The notes under the pieces: generated by a model
What the model was told of the DNA's origin: nothing
Databases searched by the model: none
The model's input: the letters and a program-made list of their open reading frames with translations, nothing else
Shown here: positions 48,905-59,790 of the stretch, one piece after another
How the letters are laid out: every line of letters starts with the position of its first letter
Numbering within the stretch: the first letter of the stretch is position 1
Translations under genes and position numbers: made by a program
DNA from: an uncultured Opitutia bacterium
GTDB taxonomy: Bacteria; Verrucomicrobiota; Verrucomicrobiia; Opitutales; UBA953
Length of the DNA: 64,000 bases
Direction of reading: 5' to 3'
Assembly: GCA_903855995.1 (NCBI GenBank)
Contig: CAIOAN010000012.1
Location: forward strand, 186,001-250,000

Positions 48905-49903
48905 GTGGAAAAAATCCGCCTCAGCGTCGTCTTGCCGACCTACAATTGCCGCAGGCAGATGGCCCGGCATCTCGCCTCCATGGCGACCTGGGCAGATTTG
49001 GCGGATGAAATCGTCATCGTGGACAGCCGCTCCACCGATGGCACGCTTGAAGTCATCCGCAACGGACTCCGGCACCCCAATCTCCGCATCATCGAACGCG
49101 ATCGAGGCCTCTACGAATCCTGGAACGAAGGCATCGCCGCGACCACCGGCGATTGGGTCTATATCAGTACCGCCGGCGACACCATCGAACGCGAACACTT
49201 GCTGCACCTGCTTGACCTCGGGGAAAGTTCCGCGGCCGACGTCGTGATTAGCGCGCCCACGTTCGTCCATGAAGATGGAAGCCCGCACCGCGACTTGGAT
49301 TGGCCTCCGACCAAACTGCTATCGGCCTTCGGCCGGGGGCGCCCCTTCATAATTTACCCCGAGGCCACGCAGTTCCTGGCTTTCCAGAACTGCCCCAACG
49401 CGCTGCTGGGAAGCTCAGCCGCCGACCTCTACCGAGGATCCCACCTTCGAGCCCGGCCTTTCCCTGATGAATACGGAGTGGTCGGCGACACCGCGTGGAT
49501 TATGCGCTACGGCCATGAGACCCGATTAGCGCTGACGCCAAGCAAGGGCTCGACCTTTTGTATTCACGAGAAGGAGACCAAGCTAACGCCCGAGGGTGCC
49601 TACTTGCTCTACTTACGCTTGCTTGAATGCGAACGAAAACTGCTGATGACTAAAAGCCTCGGTCAACGCTCACTGCTCGGTAGATTCTTCTCCTCGCAGG
49701 AGCTACCGCAACGGACAAAGCAGCTATGGGTAAAGAAGCGATCGCTTTGGCATGCGCGCGAAAACCATTTCGTCAATAAACTGCAGTGGATCGGCACGAC
49801 CTTGAACTACCTTTGGCATAGCGCAGGAATGAAATTACGGGAGCGAAATGAATTGGCTGAACTAGGAATAGAAAAAACGTGGTTTAAACACCTTGAATCC
49901 TAG
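48905..49903 (+). CDS. GT2-family glycosyltransferase
   Basis: 332 residues from GTG 48905. GT-A signatures: RLSVVLPTYNCRRQMARHLASM at the N-terminus, EIVIVDSRSTDGTLEVI, and IIERDRGLYESWNEGIAATTGDWVYISTAGDTIE, where the usual DD of the DxD site is replaced by AGD. The N-terminal domain resembles WcaE-type transferases. The 3' half drops in GC and is Lys-rich, unlike earlier genes, marking the start of a low-GC patch (about 48.8-51.1 kb). Confidence 0.82.
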   Translation: MEKIRLSVVLPTYNCRRQMARHLASMATWADLADEIVIVDSRSTDGTLEVIRNGLRHPNLRIIERDRGLYESWNEGIAATTGDWVYISTAGDTIEREHLLHLLDLGESSAADVVISAPTFVHEDGSPHRDLDWPPTKLLSAFGRGRPFIIYPEATQFLAFQNCPNALLGSSAADLYRGSHLRARPFPDEYGVVGDTAWIMRYGHETRLALTPSKGSTFCIHEKETKLTPEGAYLLYLRLLECERKLLMTKSLGQRSLLGRFFSSQELPQRTKQLWVKKRSLWHARENHFVNKLQWIGTTLNYLWHSAGMKLRERNELAELGIEKTWFKHLES

Positions 49904-49942
49904 CCTCTTGGAGGTTCGTCCTTCCCCTGCCCTGCGGAGTTG

Positions 49943-50146
49943 GGCTAAGGTGCCTCCATGTCCCAACGGCCCCTTGGTTTCGGCATCTGGGGAACTGGCA
50001 TGATTGCTGAGTTCTACGCGAAGGCTCTGGCCGAGATCGTCGGGGTGAAGTTGGTTGTCGCGGCTAACCACTCGACCTCCAAGGGGCGTGACTCCGCGGC
50101 AGGGTGCTTGCAGCCGCTGACGGAGCACGACAGGAGACTAACGTGA
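49943..50146 (+). pseudogene. Truncated 5' duplicate of the Gfo/Idh/MocA oxidoreductase gene
   Basis: Bases 49943-49995 are identical, over 53 nt including the leader, to 54536-54588 at the start of the intact oxidoreductase gene. Similarity then continues with scattered substitutions, many at third codon positions, to about 50100. The fragment encodes MSQRPLGFGIWGTGMIAEF then KALAEI.GVKLV.A.N.S..KGRD, about 49 matching residues of a 62-codon frame, and then runs into unrelated sequence, ending at 50146. It lacks almost the whole enzyme and cannot be functional. It marks one edge of a rearranged block lying between the two copies. Confidence 0.85.
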
Positions 50147-50925
50147 TGAAGAGGGCCTTTTCCTTTTGTATTTATGGCGATAACCGCACCTACCTCGAAG
50201 GCTTGCTGAAGAACCTCGTGGCCATCAGCGCGCTGTACCCATCATTCGAAAAGCATATCTATGCGGGGTGTGACATTAGCGAGGCCTTCATCGATGCTTG
50301 TGAATCCTTCAGCTCGACTTACGTGCACCGGCTCCCGTTTACGGGCGGCAGGCTGATGTCCTGCCGGTTCCTTGCCATCGATCTACCTAATATAGAACTC
50401 ATGATTGTCCGCGACGCGGATAGCCGAATTACGGCTCGCGACCGTTGGTGCATCGATGATTTCATCGCCTCGGACTACGAGCTTTTCACGATCAGAGACC
50501 ACAAGTTCCATTATCGGGAAATCATGGGCGGGCTCTGGGGCATGCGGCGAATCCCGGGCTTCTCAATGCAAGCCGCTTATGCAGAATTCACGGCCGCCAC
50601 CCGCGACCTAGACCGTTACCAATCCGACCAGGATTTCCTTCGGAACTTCATCTACCGTCGTTATCGAGAATCAATATTGATCTACTCCCCCACTTGGGCC
50701 TTCCCTGGGGAAACTTGCCGGAAAATAAGCCTCGAACGCAATGGTCCTCACGATTTCTGCGGCAACGTTATCATCGTTGACGCGCTCGGAGAGCGACCGC
50801 AGTTCGAGTCAAACGACGCATTGCCAGATAATTTCCAGCACCTGATTCGCTTGTATAAGCACAGCAAGGACGGGGTGAGGCTTACGCTTGCCGAGCGAAT
50901 ACGGGCTTTCTGGGACGGCGACTGA
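50146..50925 (+). CDS. Glycosyltransferase-like protein of unnamed family (low-GC gene)
   Basis: 259 residues from ATG 50146, which shares a base with the stop of the truncated duplicate (TGATG). A real Shine-Dalgarno sequence, AGGAG, lies at 50132-50136, unlike nearly all other genes here. Conserved-looking strings are FCIYGDNRTYLEGLLKNL, ELMIVRDADSRITARDRWCIDDFI (DxDSR), and MGGLWGMRR. The same pattern occurs in hypothetical proteins of polysaccharide clusters, where the DxD suggests a GT-A transferase. GC is clearly lower than in neighbouring regions, consistent with recent acquisition. Confidence 0.65.
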   Translation: MKRAFSFCIYGDNRTYLEGLLKNLVAISALYPSFEKHIYAGCDISEAFIDACESFSSTYVHRLPFTGGRLMSCRFLAIDLPNIELMIVRDADSRITARDRWCIDDFIASDYELFTIRDHKFHYREIMGGLWGMRRIPGFSMQAAYAEFTAATRDLDRYQSDQDFLRNFIYRRYRESILIYSPTWAFPGETCRKISLERNGPHDFCGNVIIVDALGERPQFESNDALPDNFQHLIRLYKHSKDGVRLTLAERIRAFWDGD

Positions 50926-51071
50926 AGCCTGGCACAACGGGAGATCCGACCGTGAGTTCACTTGTCGTCTGTCTGCTTGAGGCAAACGTATCTGCTAGGA
51001 TTCAGTTACCATAAACCTCCGCCCGTGGATACCCTTTTGACAGCCGCGATTGGGTGACTTTAAGTCCATAT

Positions 51072-51803
51072 ATGGCTACGATCTCCTCGCTGCTTGGCGC
51101 ACTTCGAAGGTTCTGCGGACTGAGCGGGGGCGTGGAATATCCTTTGGTTAGCTACACGGATGCCCGCTTCCACGCCCACATCCCGAGAAACAGCCTTAGA
51201 ACGATCTTCGAGGTGGGTGCGCGGCATGGCGACGAGAGCCGAGCACTGGCGATGATGCTCCCTGGCGCCAAAATCTACTCCTTTGAGTGCAATCCGGCGA
51301 CGATTGAGTCCTGCCGCGAGAAATTAAGGCCCTTCGTGAATGTGACGTTTCATGACCACGCCCTGGGCTCCCGCGAAGAGACGCGCGACTTTTTCCCATT
51401 CGTCGTCGATGATAATCCGGGGGCGAGCAGCTTCTTGGAGCGCGTTGATGCGACCTTAACCCAGAATCGCACGGGCGTGAAGATACTGGTGCGCACCGGA
51501 ATGGACTCCATGGAGAAGCATGGCCTGACCACGATCGACTTGCTTTGCATGGATGTCCAAGGCCTTGAGCTTGAGGTTCTAAAGGGCTTCGGGGAACGCT
51601 TGGAGCAGGTGCGCTACATCATCATGGAAGAACCTTCGCTGACGCCTTCTCGAGAGCACCTACCGGAGGGGATGCACTCCAAATACCTCGACGCGCCCAA
51701 CCCCATCGCCATCCGCGCCTTCATGAAGTCGCACGGCTTCCGCGAATTAGTACGCCTCCCGGAAAACCTCATCGAGGACAATGTCCTTTACGGCCGGGCC
51801 TAA
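51072..51803 (+). CDS. FkbM-family methyltransferase
   Basis: 243 residues from ATG 51072; GTG 51054 is an alternative. The SAM-binding motif I is TIFEVGARHGDESRAL, followed by IYSFECNPATIESCREKL, and later LLCMDVQGLELEVLKGFGE and YIIMEEPS, the typical FkbM layout. FkbM enzymes O-methylate sugars or other small groups, so it probably decorates the glycan. A perfect TTGACA lies at 51037-51042, but a good -10 box is not seen. The end of the gene abuts the remnant of a second FkbM gene on the other strand. Confidence 0.82.
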   Translation: MATISSLLGALRRFCGLSGGVEYPLVSYTDARFHAHIPRNSLRTIFEVGARHGDESRALAMMLPGAKIYSFECNPATIESCREKLRPFVNVTFHDHALGSREETRDFFPFVVDDNPGASSFLERVDATLTQNRTGVKILVRTGMDSMEKHGLTTIDLLCMDVQGLELEVLKGFGERLEQVRYIIMEEPSLTPSREHLPEGMHSKYLDAPNPIAIRAFMKSHGFRELVRLPENLIEDNVLYGRA

Positions 51804-52195
51804 GCCGGCTTCATCGCCCTGCATGCGCACGTCGCACTTGGCCTCGCGGTCAGAAGCCGCAAAGGGATAGATTAAGACGTTTTTACGCCGGCCATATTAT
51901 GTCGCAGGCATTCGAGAGCCTCCGCGTTCGGCTCCATACAGATGATTTGCCTGGCGCGATCAACGAAGGCGCAGGCATAACAGCCGATATTCGCGCCGAC
52001 ATTCAACAGCACGCCACCTTTGCGAAAGAGATGCTGGTAGCATCCGAGCGCCGACTGGTCGAAATCGAGTCGGCCGACCTGCTCGACCCACCGACCGAGA
52101 TGCGTGTCCCTATCAACGATTGCCCAGCCTTGCTTCGTAAGTCGCATCCCAGATGAGGATACACTGGATAGACCGTCATTCAAGCCATCAAGCAA
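51804..52195 (-). pseudogene. Frameshifted, truncated FkbM-type methyltransferase
   Basis: From TTG 52195 the minus strand encodes LGRWVEQVGRLDFDQSA and the SAM motif GGVLLNVGANIGCYACAF, then IICMEPNAEALECLRHNMAG, and stops at 51872. In the next frame the family sequence goes on (RKNVLIYPFAASDREAKCD, then VRMQGDEAGLG), so a frameshift lies at the GTAAAAACG run near 51880. The similarity ends at about 51804, where the other FkbM gene ends on the opposite strand. The enzyme lacks its C-terminal half, so it is dead. Confidence 0.8.
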
Positions 52196-53399
52196 GCGAC
52201 GGGAGTAGCCGCGCCCATGCCTCGGCCTGTTCGGCGAAGAGGCGCTGGTTCTCGGTCTTCATCCGGTCATGCAAGGCGACCAAGTCCGTGCGATACAGCT
52301 TACCGAAAAGCTCCTCTGGAGTGGACCAACGCTGGGCATTCTCGACCTGGTTGAAATACATGTATTTAAGCCAGGCCCGCTGAGCCTCGGGCGAGGGATC
52401 ATTAGGCGAATGCGAATATCCCGTACTGGCGACAGGATGATGGCGCTCGAGCTCATCCACGGCTTCCTGGCTTTGATAAATTGGATGCAACCGCACATCA
52501 CCCATCTGGTCGACGAGGAGCTCGTCCGACGGCACGAAGAACGGCAGGTTCATCTGGTAAAGCTCCACCATCGAGATGGAAAAGGCCGAATAGGGATTCA
52601 TCAGCACGGCCGGGTGCCGGGCGAGGTTCTCCGGCGAAGCCGTATTACCGGGATAGATTTTCTTGATGAATTCGAACGTGTAAGGCTCGAAGCCATGGCG
52701 GGCCGCGTAGGCCGCGCTCTGCTGATTCAGGGCGGCGAGGTTATTCGCGAAGCCGATGATAGTATCGAGGTTGTGTGAAGGGCCGATAAGCACGATGCGA
52801 TTCGCGGGCGCATAGGGGCCGGCCAGCAGTTCGGGCGCCAGATGGACGCAGACGACCGGTAAGCGGCGCAGTTCCACTCCGGTGTAATACTTGGTGTAGT
52901 GGAAATCATATTCCGACATCGTCGCCAGGACGTAGCGGGGATCCGCCGCCAGGACACGCAGATGACGAGTGACTTCCTCGAGCCGGTCGGCGGCGACGCT
53001 GATGTGAATACGGTGACCGATGTTCAGGATAAGCTTCACCGAGGTCGGCAGTTTAGTCAGTGCCTCGAGCCGCGACGGCGGGAAACTGCACAGCGCCTGG
53101 CGGAGTTTCCGTAATCCGGGTTGCCGGGCGAATTCCTCGCGCACCTGCGCCTCGGACCATTCGGCGAGATTCAGGAAGAACGCATCGCTGGTGACTGTCT
53201 TGCTGGAGGCATACTGGGCGTGCTTCGAAAGCGTACGAGCCTCCGCGTCGACACCGATCGAGCGGAGTAACGCGGTCTGCCACATGGTGGTGCCGATGTG
53301 CATATCCGAGACGATCAGCGTCGGCGTCGTCTCGCGACCGCGCCAGCGACGCCAGGCCTCTGCAAGACGTAGACCCAGCATGCGTAGCGGCTTCGCCAT
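52188..53399 (-). CDS. Uncharacterised protein of the polysaccharide region
   Basis: 403 residues; I do not recognise the family. There is no signal peptide or membrane helix. The sequence alternates hydrophobic strands and amphipathic helices (TPTLIVSDMHIGTTMWQTAL; TSVKLILNIGHRIHISV; NRIVLIGPSHNLDTIIGF), with a two-domain alternation that suggests a GT-B glycosyltransferase. Later segments (HPAVLMNPYSAFSISMVELYQMNLPFFVPSDELL) look like the donor-binding side. It sits 8 bp after the STELLO-like gene on the same strand, implying a joint role in glycan assembly. The stop overlaps the start region of the FkbM remnant. Confidence 0.6.
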   Translation of the reverse strand: MAKPLRMLGLRLAEAWRRWRGRETTPTLIVSDMHIGTTMWQTALLRSIGVDAEARTLSKHAQYASSKTVTSDAFFLNLAEWSEAQVREEFARQPGLRKLRQALCSFPPSRLEALTKLPTSVKLILNIGHRIHISVAADRLEEVTRHLRVLAADPRYVLATMSEYDFHYTKYYTGVELRRLPVVCVHLAPELLAGPYAPANRIVLIGPSHNLDTIIGFANNLAALNQQSAAYAARHGFEPYTFEFIKKIYPGNTASPENLARHPAVLMNPYSAFSISMVELYQMNLPFFVPSDELLVDQMGDVRLHPIYQSQEAVDELERHHPVASTGYSHSPNDPSPEAQRAWLKYMYFNQVENAQRWSTPEELFGKLYRTDLVALHDRMKTENQRLFAEQAEAWARLLPSLA

Positions 53400-53407
53400 G
53401 GTCTGGC

Positions 53408-54445
53408 TTAGGCGAGGGCCTCGATCCAGGCAGCGAGCAGCGGTAGCTCGCGGGCGTCCTTCACGATGCCCTCGGTGACTAGGCGGGCGTAGAATTGCTT
53501 GAGGCCGTCGGGGCCGCTCGCGAAGCCTCCCGCTGCCAGGCCTTCATCGAGCAGGGCGATGAGGCGGTCGACGTGGACATACATTTCGCACTCCTGGAGG
53601 TAGTCCTTGAAATAATCGTGGGGGTTACGGTCCTGGAAGACCGTCGCGCCCTGGAAGACCATGCTCCGACCGGCGCTGCGGACGAAGGCCTGGGCGATAT
53701 ACATCTTGAGGATATCGCAGAAGCGGAAGCTCACGTAACTCGGGACGTAGAGCAGCGGGAAGTCGGCCCGCCGGCGCCAGACGGTGTTCTGCGTGTTGCC
53801 GGGACAATACTGGGTCGGGCCGAGCTTATAGTAGGCGCCGGTCTTCGCGAACATCACCGGCGAGAGCGACTCGTTCGCCGTTAGGCGGAAGATGGCGTCC
53901 ACATCCGGATCGCCGTCCGCCAGGCCCTGGATGATGCTGACGTCGTCGAAGAATCCAGCCGCGGCGGCGGGCGTGCCATGGCGGTGGGAATCCTGATCGA
54001 GCACGCGGCTGAGCGGCAAACCGCGCGGCCAGATATGCTTATCAGTGAAGAGTCGGTAGAGGTTGACGGTCTTCGGACCGCCGACGACGAAGTGCGATGT
54101 GGCCGGGGCGAGTTCTGGATGGACCGACTTAGCGGTCCAGTCGTCGTAAGGGATATTATCATCATCGGTCTCAATGATGCACTCGTATCCTTGGTGCGCC
54201 GCGAACAGGTAGCCCATGTTCTTCCGGGCATAATGATTGAAGGGCAGCAAGGCGTCGAACGCCGGCGCGAGCTCCTTCTGGCGGGCCACGGAGAGGAACT
54301 CACAATCGAGTCCGGCGTAAGTCGCCTCGGGGGTCTTACGGTCGGCGACAATGATCACATCGACGGCGGGATCAGCGATGTATTTGAGCACGGACGGCGT
54401 CGGTGCGTTGATGGTCGTGATGATGACGCAGGCCCGGTTGCTCAT
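53408..54445 (-). CDS. STELLO (DUF288)-like glycosyltransferase
   Basis: 345 residues from ATG 54445; the long frame continues upstream only as antisense of the oxidoreductase gene. The start CVIITTINAPTPSV and VIIVADRKTPEATY match the first strands of the STELLO/DUF288 family. The metal site is IIETDDDNIPYDDW. Later strings WPRGLPLSRVLDQD and LFTDKHIWPRG are also characteristic. Plant STELLO proteins act in the Golgi in cellulose synthase assembly; bacterial members lie in polysaccharide clusters and are assumed to be glycosyltransferases. The role here is inferred from context. Confidence 0.78.
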   Translation of the reverse strand: MSNRACVIITTINAPTPSVLKYIADPAVDVIIVADRKTPEATYAGLDCEFLSVARQKELAPAFDALLPFNHYARKNMGYLFAAHQGYECIIETDDDNIPYDDWTAKSVHPELAPATSHFVVGGPKTVNLYRLFTDKHIWPRGLPLSRVLDQDSHRHGTPAAAAGFFDDVSIIQGLADGDPDVDAIFRLTANESLSPVMFAKTGAYYKLGPTQYCPGNTQNTVWRRRADFPLLYVPSYVSFRFCDILKMYIAQAFVRSAGRSMVFQGATVFQDRNPHDYFKDYLQECEMYVHVDRLIALLDEGLAAGGFASGPDGLKQFYARLVTEGIVKDARELPLLAAWIEALA

Positions 54446-54550
54446 GAGGAGATGTGTATGGGGGTATCGATGCACCCGCGGAGAGTCAATCCGAGGCGAC
54501 CGCGATGCTTCTTCCTTCCCTGCGCCGCCGTCCGTGGCTAAGGTGCCTCC

Positions 54551-55648
54551 ATGTCCCAACGGCCCCTTGGTTTCGGCATCTGGGGAACCGGCATGATCGC
54601 CGAGTTCCACGCGAAGGCGCTCGCCGAGATCGCCGGCGTGAAGCTTGTCGCTGCCTATAACCGTTCGCCCGCCAAGGGCCGCGATTTCGCGACCAAGCAT
54701 GGCATCGCGTTCGCCGAGACACCGGAGGCGCTCCTCGCGAACCCCGACGTGGATATCGTCTGCCTCTGCACGCCCAGCGGCGACCACCTCGCCCCGGCCC
54801 TCGCCTGCGCCAAGGCGGGGAAGCACGTGGTCGTTGAGAAGCCGCTCGAAGTCACGCTCGCCCGCTGCGACGAGCTCACCGCCGCTTGCGCTAAGGCCGG
54901 CGTGACAGTCGCGGGCATCTTGCCTCGCCGCTTCGGCTCCGGCGCGGTCGCGCTCAAGGCCGCGCTCGACGGCGGTCGCTTCGGCAAGCTCACCCTCACC
55001 GGCGCGCTCATCCCGTGGTGGCGCACGCAGGCATATTATGATTCCGCGGCTTGGCGCGGTACGTTCGCCCTCGATGGCGGTGGTGCCGTGATGAACCAAG
55101 GGATCCACACGATCGACCTCCTACTCTGGTTCCTTGGCGCGCCCAAGCGCGTCTCCGCCACCGCCGGTCTCGTCGCCCATGACGGCATTGAGGTCGAGGA
55201 TATCGCCGCCGGCTGGATCGAGTTCGCCAACGGTTGCCGCGCGACGCTCGCCAGCTCGACTGCGTGCTGGTCCGGCACGGGCTTCCCCGCTGAGATCCGT
55301 ATTCATGGCACGACCGGCGCCGCCGTCCTGCGCGACGATAAGCTGACCGCTTTCGAATTTGAAAAGCCCCTGCCCTCCGACGCCGCGGTTATCGCACCTG
55401 CCACCGAAGGTGGCGGCGCGGGCGCCAACGACCCTAAGGCCATCGGCCATGCCTGGCATCGCTCCAATCTGGAAGAAGCCATCGCTGCGATCCGCACCGG
55501 CAAGCAGCCCGCCGTCAACGGCGCCGAAGGCCGCAAGGCCGTGGAATTGATTCTCGCGCTGTATCAGTCCGCGCAGGCCGGCGGTACGCCGGTGGAGCTG
55601 CCCCTCGCGCGAGATCCGGTGCTGAAGAAGCTCGGGGCTAAACGCTAG
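54551..55648 (+). CDS. Gfo/Idh/MocA-family oxidoreductase
   Basis: 365 residues. The Rossmann motif is GFGIWGTGMIAEFHAKAL, followed by VDIVCLCTPSGDHLAPAL, VVEKPLEVT (cofactor and catalytic lysine) and a C-terminal alpha/beta domain with GGGAVMNQGIHTIDLLLWFLG. Such enzymes oxidise or epimerise sugars, often NDP-sugars, using NAD(P). AAGGTG lies 6 bases before the ATG as a weak Shine-Dalgarno. A truncated copy of the leader and first ~49 codons occurs at 49943. The TAG stop (55646-55648) is the beginning of an octamer repeat element. Confidence 0.88.
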   Translation: MSQRPLGFGIWGTGMIAEFHAKALAEIAGVKLVAAYNRSPAKGRDFATKHGIAFAETPEALLANPDVDIVCLCTPSGDHLAPALACAKAGKHVVVEKPLEVTLARCDELTAACAKAGVTVAGILPRRFGSGAVALKAALDGGRFGKLTLTGALIPWWRTQAYYDSAAWRGTFALDGGGAVMNQGIHTIDLLLWFLGAPKRVSATAGLVAHDGIEVEDIAAGWIEFANGCRATLASSTACWSGTGFPAEIRIHGTTGAAVLRDDKLTAFEFEKPLPSDAAVIAPATEGGGAGANDPKAIGHAWHRSNLEEAIAAIRTGKQPAVNGAEGRKAVELILALYQSAQAGGTPVELPLARDPVLKKLGAKR

Positions 55649-56037
55649 AGGCTCGGAGGCCCAGAGGCTCAGTTGACCAGACGATTCAGTTACCGCATCG
55701 GAACACGGGTACTGGGTTTCGGGTGTTAGAGTATCGGACCGTTTGCGCTCCTATATTTTTAGACTGCGTTGCCCTTTCTGTGCTGAGCCTCCGAGCCTCT
55801 GGTCAACTAAGCCTCTAACTCGCGGCTGCTCCGAGGCCCAGAGGCTCAGTTGACCAGACGATTCAGTTACCGCATCGGAAAACGGATACTGGGCTTCGGG
55901 TGTTAGAGTATCGGACCGTTTGCGCTCCTATATTTTTAGACTGCGTTACCCTTTCTGTGCTGAGCCTCCGAGCCTCTGGTCAACTAAGCCTCTAACTCGC
56001 GGCTGCTCCGAGGCCCAGAGGCTCAGTTGACCAGACG
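55645..56037. repeat. Tandem 177-bp repeat made of inverted octamer elements
   Basis: The string GAGGCCCA recurs at 55656, 55833 and 56010, giving two full 177-bp units and a partial third. Each unit has a plus-strand octamer core (55645-55683; 55833-55860), a ~100-bp unique middle (ending ...TATATTTTTAGACTGCGTT), and a minus-strand core (55782-55819; 55959-55996). The two units differ at only a few bases. In the minus-strand cores the order of the 8-nt words is permuted relative to the plus-strand cores. The gap from 55649 to 56135 contains no gene. Confidence 0.85.
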
Positions 56038-56135
56038 GCCGAGAAAACATCAGGGTGAAATCGGGGGCCAACCTAAGGTGTTAGACTCCATAAGGTCTTT
56101 GATGCTTACGTCAGCTGGGCAACCAGGCTGGAGTG

Positions 56136-56543
56136 ATGGATTCAAAAGCCTCATCCGGAAAGCCGGTTATATTCACCTTCAGAGATCTACACGTCTGGCG
56201 GCTGTCTCGGTCGCTATCTGCTGATGTCTATCGAGCCTGCTCTTCGCCAATGCTTAGCCCGCACTATGCCTTATGCGATCAAATGGGGCGAGCTGCGCTC
56301 TCCGTGCCTTCCAACATCGCCGAGGGCAACGATCGTAGCAGCAACAAGGATGCGCTTAACTTTCTCCGAATCGCGCGAGGGTCGCTCGCCGAACTAGAGA
56401 CCCAGCTGTGGATTGCGCACGATGTTGGCTGGCTTGACGCCGAATCCTATCGCCGTCTCTGCGAAAAACGTGGCGAGGTCGAACGTATGCTCGGCGGCCT
56501 TATCCGGACTCGCCAGGCCCGACTGAAAACCGACCAAGCCTAA
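56136..56543 (+). CDS. Four-helix-bundle protein (S23 / 23S rRNA IVS type)
   Basis: 135 residues from ATG 56136; GTG 56133 is adjacent. The family pattern is clear: TFRDLHVWRLSRSLSADVYRAC, DQMGRAALSVPSNIAEGNDRSS, and FLRIARGSLAELETQLWIAHDVGWL. These small proteins were first seen encoded in intervening sequences of 23S rRNA genes and are common as orphans with unknown function. Here the gene is bounded by octamer repeat elements on both sides (ending at 56037 and starting at about 56553), an arrangement that suggests a mobile cassette. GC is lower than in the housekeeping genes. Confidence 0.85.
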   Translation: MDSKASSGKPVIFTFRDLHVWRLSRSLSADVYRACSSPMLSPHYALCDQMGRAALSVPSNIAEGNDRSSNKDALNFLRIARGSLAELETQLWIAHDVGWLDAESYRRLCEKRGEVERMLGGLIRTRQARLKTDQA

Positions 56544-56552
56544 CTCTGCCTT

Positions 56553-56591
56553 TCTCTGGTCAACCGAGCCTCTGGGCCTCGGGGCCTCTAG
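56553..56591 (-). repeat. Octamer core element at the 3' end of the sugar transferase gene
   Basis: On the minus strand the words GAGGCCCC, GAGGCCCA, GAGGCTCG and GTTGACCA follow each other in 8-nt register, starting from the TAG stop codon of the sugar transferase (CTAGAGG). Confidence 0.8.
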
Positions 56592-57187
56592 TTTTTATGA
56601 CTTCCGCTAAACTCTTCCATCGTCTTCCCTTCCCCCGCGTTAATGCCCGTGCGGGCGAAGACCTTGAAGAAGGTCATGACGACGATCTTCATGTCCAAAA
56701 GGAAGGACCGGTGATCGACATACCACACATCGAGCGCGAACTTCTCCTCCCAGCTGAGCAGGTTGCGGCCGTTGACCTGCGCCCAGCCGGTGACGCCGGG
56801 CTTCACTTCCATCCGGCGCGCCTGGAATGGGTTGTAGCGAGGGATATACCGCATGAGCAGCGGACGCGGGCCGACGACGCTCATGTCGCCGATGAGCACG
56901 TTCCACATTTCGGGAAACTCATCGAGCGTGCTGGCGCGTAGGAATTTCCCAAAAGCGGTCAGGCGCGCCTCATCCGGCAACAGTTCGCCCTCCGGGCCGC
57001 GGTCATCGGTCATGGTGCGGAACTTGACCATGCGGAACGGGCGCCCGAGGTATCCCGGCCGCTCCTGGATGAAAAGGACGGGGGAGCCGAGTTTCAGTCG
57101 AACGAGGATCGCGACGAGCAGCAGCAACGGCGCAAAGACGATGAGCCAGCCGAGCGAGAAGCCGATATCGAAGAGACGCTTGAGCAT
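56588..57187 (-). CDS. Initiating sugar-phosphate transferase (polyprenyl-phosphate type)
   Basis: 199 residues, the compact single-domain form. One N-terminal helix (IGFSLGWLIVFAPLLLLVAILV) precedes the conserved PVLFIQERPGYLGRPFRMVKFRTM, the DEFPEMWNVLIGDMSVVGPRPLLM catalytic stretch and VKPGVTGWAQVNGRN. It moves a sugar-1-phosphate from an NDP-sugar to undecaprenyl phosphate, the first step of O-unit or exopolysaccharide assembly. It abuts the DUF4838 gene upstream. The final TAG is the first base set of an octamer element. Confidence 0.92.
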   Translation of the reverse strand: MLKRLFDIGFSLGWLIVFAPLLLLVAILVRLKLGSPVLFIQERPGYLGRPFRMVKFRTMTDDRGPEGELLPDEARLTAFGKFLRASTLDEFPEMWNVLIGDMSVVGPRPLLMRYIPRYNPFQARRMEVKPGVTGWAQVNGRNLLSWEEKFALDVWYVDHRSFLLDMKIVVMTFFKVFARTGINAGEGKTMEEFSGSHKN

Positions 57188-59389: not shown

Positions 59390-59423
59390 GAGGTGAGTTA
59401 GGGGGTAAGGGGCTGCGGGGGCA

Positions 59424-59790
59424 AGATGAGTTGAACCGTTGATCAGTGGGCAGATTGGCAACGGATGCATCATGAGAGGCTCGGAGGCCCAGAGGCTCGG
59501 TTGACCAGAGAGAGCCAACACTAGTTGACCGGTTGATCAGAGGCCGAAACATCAAAGGGAAACCGGAGATCGGAGAGAGATAGCGTTAGTTGAACCGTTG
59601 ATCAGTGGGCCCGTGGGCCAGATCGAGACAGTATGAGAGGCTCGGAGGCCCAGAGGCTCAGTTGATCAGAGAGAGCCAACACTAGTTGGCCGGTTGATCA
59701 GCTGGCCGAAACATCAAAGGGAAACCGGAGATCGGAGAGATAGCGTTAGTTGACCGGTTGATCAGTGGGCCCGTGGGCCAGAGGAGAGGC
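59424..59790. repeat. Tandem ~160-bp repeat with octamer cores and GTTGACCN/GTTGATCA words
   Basis: Two units with a period of 160-161 bp: octamer cores at 59474-59510 and 59635-59671, each followed by AGAGCCAACACTAGTTG and by AACATCAAAGGGAAACCGGAG. Between them are five copies of a paired word (GTTGACCG or GTTGAACC or GTTGGCCG, then GTTGATCA) at about 59429, 59523, 59588, 59683 and 59748. The whole gap 59390-59940 contains no gene; the part after 59800 holds the presumptive promoter of the methyltransferase. Confidence 0.85.

Follow-up and report, generated by a model that had tools for sequence, protein, structure and literature searches.

The window analysed here, a stretch of 64,000 nucleotides (nt) from an uncultured Opitutia bacterium (contig CAIOAN010000012.1, positions 186,001 to 250,000), carries a variable locus whose contents are, by family names only, those of surface-glycan synthesis (GT10, GT25, GT2, FkbM, a weak STELLO-like match and a sugar transferase). 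In this locus, the start of a gene for a Gfo/Idh/MocA oxidoreductase (Gfo from here on) occurs twice. A 5' remnant consisting of 43 nt of upstream DNA and 141 coding nt (copy A, 49915-50098) is separated by an interval of 4.45 kb from the intact gene (copy B). The features that concern the two copies and their neighbours are the following.

48905..49903, + strand: GT2 glycosyltransferase gene, left neighbour of remnant A (PF00535, 7.4e-18)
49915..49957, + strand: leader and putative promoter of remnant A, with GGCTAAGGTGCCTCC adjoining the ATG (local alignment with the DNA upstream of B)
49958..50098, + strand: remnant A, first 141 nt of the Gfo/Idh/MocA gene (nhmmer E 9e-35, profile positions 1-143)
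50144-50146, + strand: stop codon of the open reading frame (ORF) of remnant A
54443..54550, + strand: intergenic stretch carrying the leader of copy B, 91% identical, together with the upstream gene, to relative genome G023
54551..55648, + strand: intact Gfo/Idh/MocA oxidoreductase gene, copy B, read as the right edge of the variable glycan locus
54566..54613, + strand: codons 6-21 of the intact gene, a core with conserved synonymous codons and the proposed crossover zone
56588..57187, - strand: bacterial sugar transferase gene (PF02397), right of the edge gene

The two copies are in direct orientation, with their starts 4593 bp apart, and align over 174 nt at 82% identity, including an identical run of 53 nt composed of 15 leader and 38 coding nt (49943-49995 and 54536-54588). 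A 206-nt query taken from the repeat matches only these two places in the 2.66-Mb genome (E <= 0.001; the second at E 5.7e-45), and the duplication reported by the first-pass annotation is thus real, with its coordinates and most of its details correct. Copy B has the NAD-binding N-terminal and the C-terminal domains expected of this family, all above cut-off (PF01408, 94.2 bits; PF22725, 95.4 bits; PF02894, 78.6 bits). Over the 47 codons that can be compared, A and B differ at 24 positions (5, 5 and 14 at codon positions 1, 2 and 3, respectively) and eight codons are changed non-synonymously. Third positions account for 14 of these 24 differences (binomial p 0.01, tested against a one-third share), so the divergence resembles, in part, that of a functional gene. 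The ORF of remnant A ends in a TGATG that overlaps the start of the gene at 50146-50925, upstream of which an AGGAGA was found where a Shine-Dalgarno site had been announced, and the leader of the remnant may now drive this first gene of the interval. Leaders similar to that of remnant A precede several intact Gfo copies. In both copies TAAGGT is found 7-12 nt before the ATG (49946-49951 and 54539-54544), a position that might be expected for the -10 box of a leaderless transcript.

Between the two copies lie four genes and a gene fragment.

50146..50925, + strand: gene without family, its start overlapping the stop of the remnant ORF
51054..51803, + strand: FkbM-family methyltransferase gene (PF05050, 2.2e-15; TIGR01444, 3.5e-22)
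51872..52195, - strand: truncated FkbM-like remnant, N-terminal part only (TIGR01444 positions 1-43 of 143, E 8.3e-7, below cut-off)
52188..53399, - strand: 403-amino-acid (aa) gene, candidate cassette gene common to the window and G023 (88% nt identity)
53408..54442, - strand: STELLO-like glycosyltransferase gene, candidate cassette gene common to the window and G023 (PF03385, 2.8e-5)

This content is largely as first described. The FkbM gene is there, as is the gene then called unknown, the 403-aa gene, to which neither Pfam nor NCBIfam-type family searches gave a family. Matches for the FkbM remnant and the STELLO-like gene are also present, but both are below cut-off (the former without a Pfam FkbM match, the latter under the gathering score of PF03385 and without an NCBIfam match). 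The gene at 50146-50925, singled out as atypical and low in GC, does have a lower GC content than the window (53.8% vs 63.3%), but the deviation is mild. In a comparison set of 55 genomes of this uncultured Opitutae genus, one per species, the latter gene has a match in a single genome (E <= 1e-12), and the 403-aa and STELLO-like genes each have matches in two, the window genome and G023 (E <= 1e-30). Predicted structures of the two block proteins without family are of low confidence, with mean predicted local distance difference test (pLDDT) values of 37 and 33.

Gfo is present in 38 of the 55 genomes (E <= 1e-60), including 18 of the 22 better ones, and in a family-wide search (E <= 1e-80) the 38 matching genomes among 79 all belong to this genus, one of five. 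Lake-like sample names suggest a freshwater habitat. Forty stretches were fetched from 33 other genomes (G015, G025, G029 and G033 are not among them), in which the usual order is dnaE, a glycan block that varies between species, Gfo, and then the sugar transferase and a DUF4838 protein whose order and orientation vary. The same stretch holds both dnaE and Gfo in 11 of the 40, the others being cut by contig ends or by the fetched length, or showing no dnaE within range; dnaE is upstream and on the same strand in 10 of these 11 and on the opposite strand in L087. Three genomes (G045, G040 and G024; L063/L064, L066-L069 and L070-L072) each have between two and four Gfo copies or pieces, which are on separate contigs and differ in their upstream DNA; this reflects either real multiplicity or mixed strains in a metagenome-assembled genome (MAG). 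Public records titled Polynucleobacter meluiroseus and Akkermansia muciniphila (L109 and L117) also carry this Opitutae-genus locus, and these bins look mislabelled.

The block between the two copies is absent from six contigs (L068, L083, L084, L085, L086 and L096), in which GT2 (63-70% aa identity) directly precedes an intact Gfo, with 53-67 nt between the ends of the GT2 and Gfo matches. The corresponding spacing in the window, from GT2 to remnant A, is 54 nt, and G050 is colinear with the window through GT2, from -1036 to +103 of remnant A, at 69.6% identity. Because these relatives have GT2 and Gfo without the block at a similar spacing, the 4.45-kb block is most simply read as a probable addition. 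Comparison with relatives was the check that the first-pass annotation had proposed for its idea of an insertion by recombination, an idea supported by this block-free layout and by the pair of genomes described next.

Gfo remnants comprising the 5' end were found in three of the 55 genomes (window, G044 and G023) by DNA similarity, local BLAST, patterns and a profile, the profile matches stopping at differing places (nt 51, 114 and 143). Pieces with the 3' end only were seen just at contig ends (search at E <= 1e-60; profile over 80 loci and the window), no genome-wide search for short 3' remnants having been made. One of the three, G044, is colinear with G032 over 7459 bp at 97.6% identity, up to nt 101 of Gfo. 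At that point, G044 has a 1137-bp insert that is absent there from G032 and contains one recognised gene, FkbM-like and 263 aa long (PF05050, 2.1e-6), after which Gfo starts again from its ATG. The two genomes are close to a before/after pair, with G032 as the insert-free sister state rather than a proven ancestor. Relative to G032, the G044 remnant differs at one of 500 upstream nt and at none of the first 59 coding nt, then at 15 of the following 46 (0/59 vs 15/46, Fisher 9e-7), and among 11 sites in nt 60-105 at which G032 deviates from the genus consensus, it has the consensus nucleotide at seven. The intact Gfo of G044 shows a different pattern: 7/59 and 27/142 differences from G032, then 0/194 (Fisher 3e-11), followed by later mosaic patches of 16/139, 0/312 and 12/174. 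Each of the two copies appears to be a chimera with breakpoints towards the 5' end of the gene. The simplest reading of these alignments would be a pair of homologous crossovers, of which the left one joined a donor remnant to the resident gene within the conserved start and the right one was located near nt 201.

In G023, a decayed remnant is found beside the end of the 403-aa gene, while STELLO and then Gfo are on another contig; both contigs end inside the block, and the two block genes are presumably adjacent. The left neighbour of this remnant is a GT25-like gene and not GT2. Identity between G023 and the window is 91.5% upstream of Gfo and 82.1% in the gene from nt 201 on, and the same module seems to sit in different surroundings on both sides in the two genomes. 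Relatives with the same block and fragment had been named beforehand as the sign of an old conserved layout. G023, with its remnant and two block genes, goes part of the way but, because the left neighbour of the remnant differs, its arrangement resembles a cassette acquired by transfer more than a layout fixed long ago. The genes at 50146-51803 and the FkbM remnant were either added later in the window or lost in G023. More generally, upstream DNA is more alike than the gene in six of 26 pairs spanning the border, including G023 and the window (0.915 vs 0.821) and G024a and G046 (0.957 vs 0.904), three of these six resting on 72-101 upstream nt only.

Relative to the genus consensus, remnant A has no change in nt 1-38 and 22 in nt 39-141 (consensus of 36 copies, some cut by contig ends, without G012, G015, G025, G026, G029, G033, G034 and one G040 copy). 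The identical leader next to diverged codons had initially been put down to partial gene conversion between A and B. This is mostly not needed, and was rejected as the main cause of the identical run, as the core is common to most genomes with the gene: 33 of the 55 genomes contain a pattern for nt 16-50 (<=3 mismatches), which gave no reversed-control hits, and over nt 1-38 the agreement with the consensus is as exact in G010, G030, G038 and G049 as it is in A and B. One small point nevertheless favours some local exchange between A and B, since among 11 leaders reading GGTGC at -9 only these two continue with CTCC before the ATG.

Synonymous codon differences are lowest at codons 11-20 among all 37 ten-codon intervals (0.157) in a scan of 32 copies, which leaves aside those cut, frameshifted or not fetched (G018, G012, G017, G019, G029, G033, G034, G039, two of G040, G015 and G025). 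The G018 gene (L065:7665-8760) is split into two overlapping frames, probably by a frameshift. In 37 copies (identity >=60%, beginning no later than residue 4, about half the full length or more), the mean difference is 0.198 for codons 6-20, 0.370 for codons 1-5 and 0.398 for the whole gene. There is no such dip in the sugar transferase (21 copies, 0.385 vs 0.441) or in GT10 (five copies, 0.410 vs 0.412), and copies of dnaE, DUF4838 and the methyltransferase are too few for this comparison. In aa-matched resampling of the same 37 copies, the core is less diverse than chance at same-amino-acid columns (p 0.0004, for a region chosen after the data were seen). Codon 12 is GGA in 35 of 36 copies, and codons 9, 16 and 20 are not conserved more than elsewhere. 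A constraint on translation initiation was dismissed as the sole cause, given that codons 1-5 vary while codons 6-20 are conserved and that the other genes show no effect. Conservation of the core can mean repeated recombination there, a function of the DNA or RNA, or both. A bolder proposal, which we regard as rather unlikely, is that the first ~60 coding nt are a true recombination element, a genus-wide landing site for integrase-free capture of glycan cassettes, at which successive cassettes, every one bringing its own copy of the site, are taken up and the gene is rebuilt each time.

We consider it fairly likely that the fragment is the footprint of a cassette that homologous recombination placed in the 5' part of a gene at the edge of a variable surface-glycan locus. 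The donor DNA would have consisted of an old 5' remnant of the gene, sugar-modification genes, and the leader and 5' part of the gene, with the remnant serving as the left homology arm and the gene as the right one. One crossover would take place in the conserved first ~60 nt, between the donor remnant and the resident gene, and the other further into the gene. As a result, the first few dozen nt of the resident would remain on the left, inside the remnant, the new genes would come to lie in the middle, and the gene would be rebuilt on the right with the leader and 5' end of the donor. This order of events presumably applies to the window as well, where the first two block genes may have been added separately. 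The first inserted gene would use the leader of the remnant and the ORF coupled to it, new surface sugars may be the benefit, and natural transformation is a plausible entry route. The genome has genes of the ComEC and DprA families, which allow transformation but do not show it; these families also match in 10 and 11 of 14 control genomes, respectively.

Several observations weigh against this scenario. The contigs with GT2 and Gfo but no block come from distant members (Gfo at 80-83% aa identity), relatives with Gfo above 90% aa identity have left neighbours other than GT2, and the first 60 nt of remnant A match G050 at only 45 of 60 positions. The relatives are different species, represented mostly by fragmented MAGs, and the case consists of three remnants in 55 genomes plus one close pair. 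The genes at 50146-51803 are absent beside the G023 remnant, which speaks against one simple event. In 20 of the 26 pairs spanning the border, similarity is higher in the gene than in the upstream DNA, and transfer of modules is therefore not the rule. The contrast within remnant A (0/38, then 22/103) is weakened by the fact that intact copies also vary least there, and no donor was found for the 5' end of B. As for the G044 remnant, there is no good donor for its nt 60-105 (the best is 80% over 46 nt), and if some constraint protected nt 1-59, decay could produce what looks like a joint. Simple decay of a dead copy was also considered and fits that remnant poorly, given a single difference from G032 over 559 nt followed by 15 over the next 46.

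The closest rival to the two-crossover insertion is homology-facilitated illegitimate recombination, in which donor DNA anchored on the right in the gene is joined on the left, without homology, to the resident 5' part, the remnant being simply the resident's own 5' end. Such recombination is among the processes described for naturally competent species and for E. coli conjugation in the account of PMC3240628; it would agree with remnant profile matches that end at nt 51, 114 and 143, and may be the natural source of the first remnant. We nevertheless deem it unlikely for the joints seen here, because after a simple joint the G044 remnant would be of resident type to its end, whereas it departs from the resident at nt 60 and yet stays gene-like to about nt 105-114.

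Two further explanations were considered. A tandem duplication internal to one lineage, of either the whole gene or its 5' end, followed by the insertion of unrelated genes between the copies or by the loss of most of the first copy, could draw on a precedent for a partial start before a full gene, namely qacC' before qacC as outlined in PMC5037232. It is very unlikely in view of the second copy of G044, which departs from the G032 type in its leader and in nt 1-201 (7/59, 27/142) and is thus no simple duplicate of the resident start, and of the greater likeness of G023 and the window in block genes than in Gfo. The 5' core could also be a site-specific recombination site, integron- or attachment (att)-like, at which a trans-acting recombinase captures circular cassettes. 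The conservation of the core at synonymous sites (p 0.0004, with the same after-the-fact choice of region), the regeneration of the gene by the inserts and a left joint that could be in or beside the core in all three remnants, within nt 27-60, would be in keeping with this. It is highly improbable all the same, as the remnants end at differing distances and as the right switch near nt 201 in G044, with its further mosaic patches, is what homologous recombination predicts. In addition, family searches recognised no recombinase among the proteins of the window block or in the 263-aa product encoded by the G044 insert (they took in neither the remainder of that insert nor other parts of the genome).

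Insertion of a cassette by homologous recombination would place the locus next to several known systems without making it identical to any. Replacement flexible genomic islands of aquatic prokaryotes are surface-glycan clusters that occupy one genome position, flanked by conserved genes, and are exchanged through homologous recombination in their edges (PMC4033161), and the locus resembles them in its surface-glycan contents and in recombination at its edges (the mosaic Gfo of G044; six of 26 pairs). In those islands, as characterised in that source, whole clusters are swapped, typically between close strains (>96% average nucleotide identity), whereas here single small modules appear to move between species. 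Complete clusters are not exchanged in G044, which gained 1137 bp beside an otherwise colinear 7.4 kb, and a remnant of the edge gene is left behind, a feature not mentioned in the parts of PMC4033161 drawn on here. The staphylococcal qacC'/qacC arrangement, going by the portion of PMC5037232 concerned with it, is similar in that a leader and ~100 coding nt (45 upstream and 97 coding nt in qacC') are repeated before an intact gene, and in that the locus is mobile without insertion sequences and has a recombination hotspot at the leader. Unlike the window locus, it is on a plasmid, confers drug resistance, has qacC' directly before the gene with no genes between, and owes its mobility to replication origins. 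The meningococcal cps locus likewise combines a full galE1 and a truncated galE2 in a polysaccharide locus with horizontally acquired parts, but galE2 is truncated at its 5' end and there is an inversion between the copies instead of an insertion at a gene start (PMC6619384, in the passages on this locus). In galactose-initiated O-antigen clusters of Salmonella, gene remnants also record recombination inside a glycan cluster; those covered in the relevant part of PMC3715488 are wzy genes and an H-repeat element and not an edge gene acting as a homology arm. Finally, merodiploids formed by pneumococcal transformation show how repeats pairing in an alternative register create duplications, although those reported in the material used from PMC3784515 involve ~100-900 kb of the cell's own genome and not foreign modules.

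In searches of open-licence literature, no prior case of additive single-module insertion with an edge-gene remnant was found in glycan loci, and none of the top ten matches listed for genomic islands of Opitutae dealt with Opitutae. The additive step, in which single modules pass between species and an edge-gene remnant is able to act as a homology arm, appears to be new. It would provide a readable record that a surface-glycan island can gain single modules between species, beyond swaps of whole clusters. A self-propagating logic is also suggested, since a module with a copy of the edge-gene start is able to enter every relative in which the gene is present. If the core is truly kept for recombination, why certain edge genes are exchange hotspots becomes testable.

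To the right of copy B, the window has at 55651-56590 a gene of the four-helix-bundle type known from 23S rRNA intervening sequences (PF05635), a 177-bp tandem repeat and inverted-repeat arms. In relatives, the PF05635 gene is adjacent to Gfo, in one orientation or the other, or is located upstream of it (L072, L016), which gives the impression of a piece that flips or moves. Further copies of the GAGGCCCAGAGGCTCAGTTGACCAGA-type repeat are present at 59416-59782, both direct and inverted relative to those around 55651-56590.

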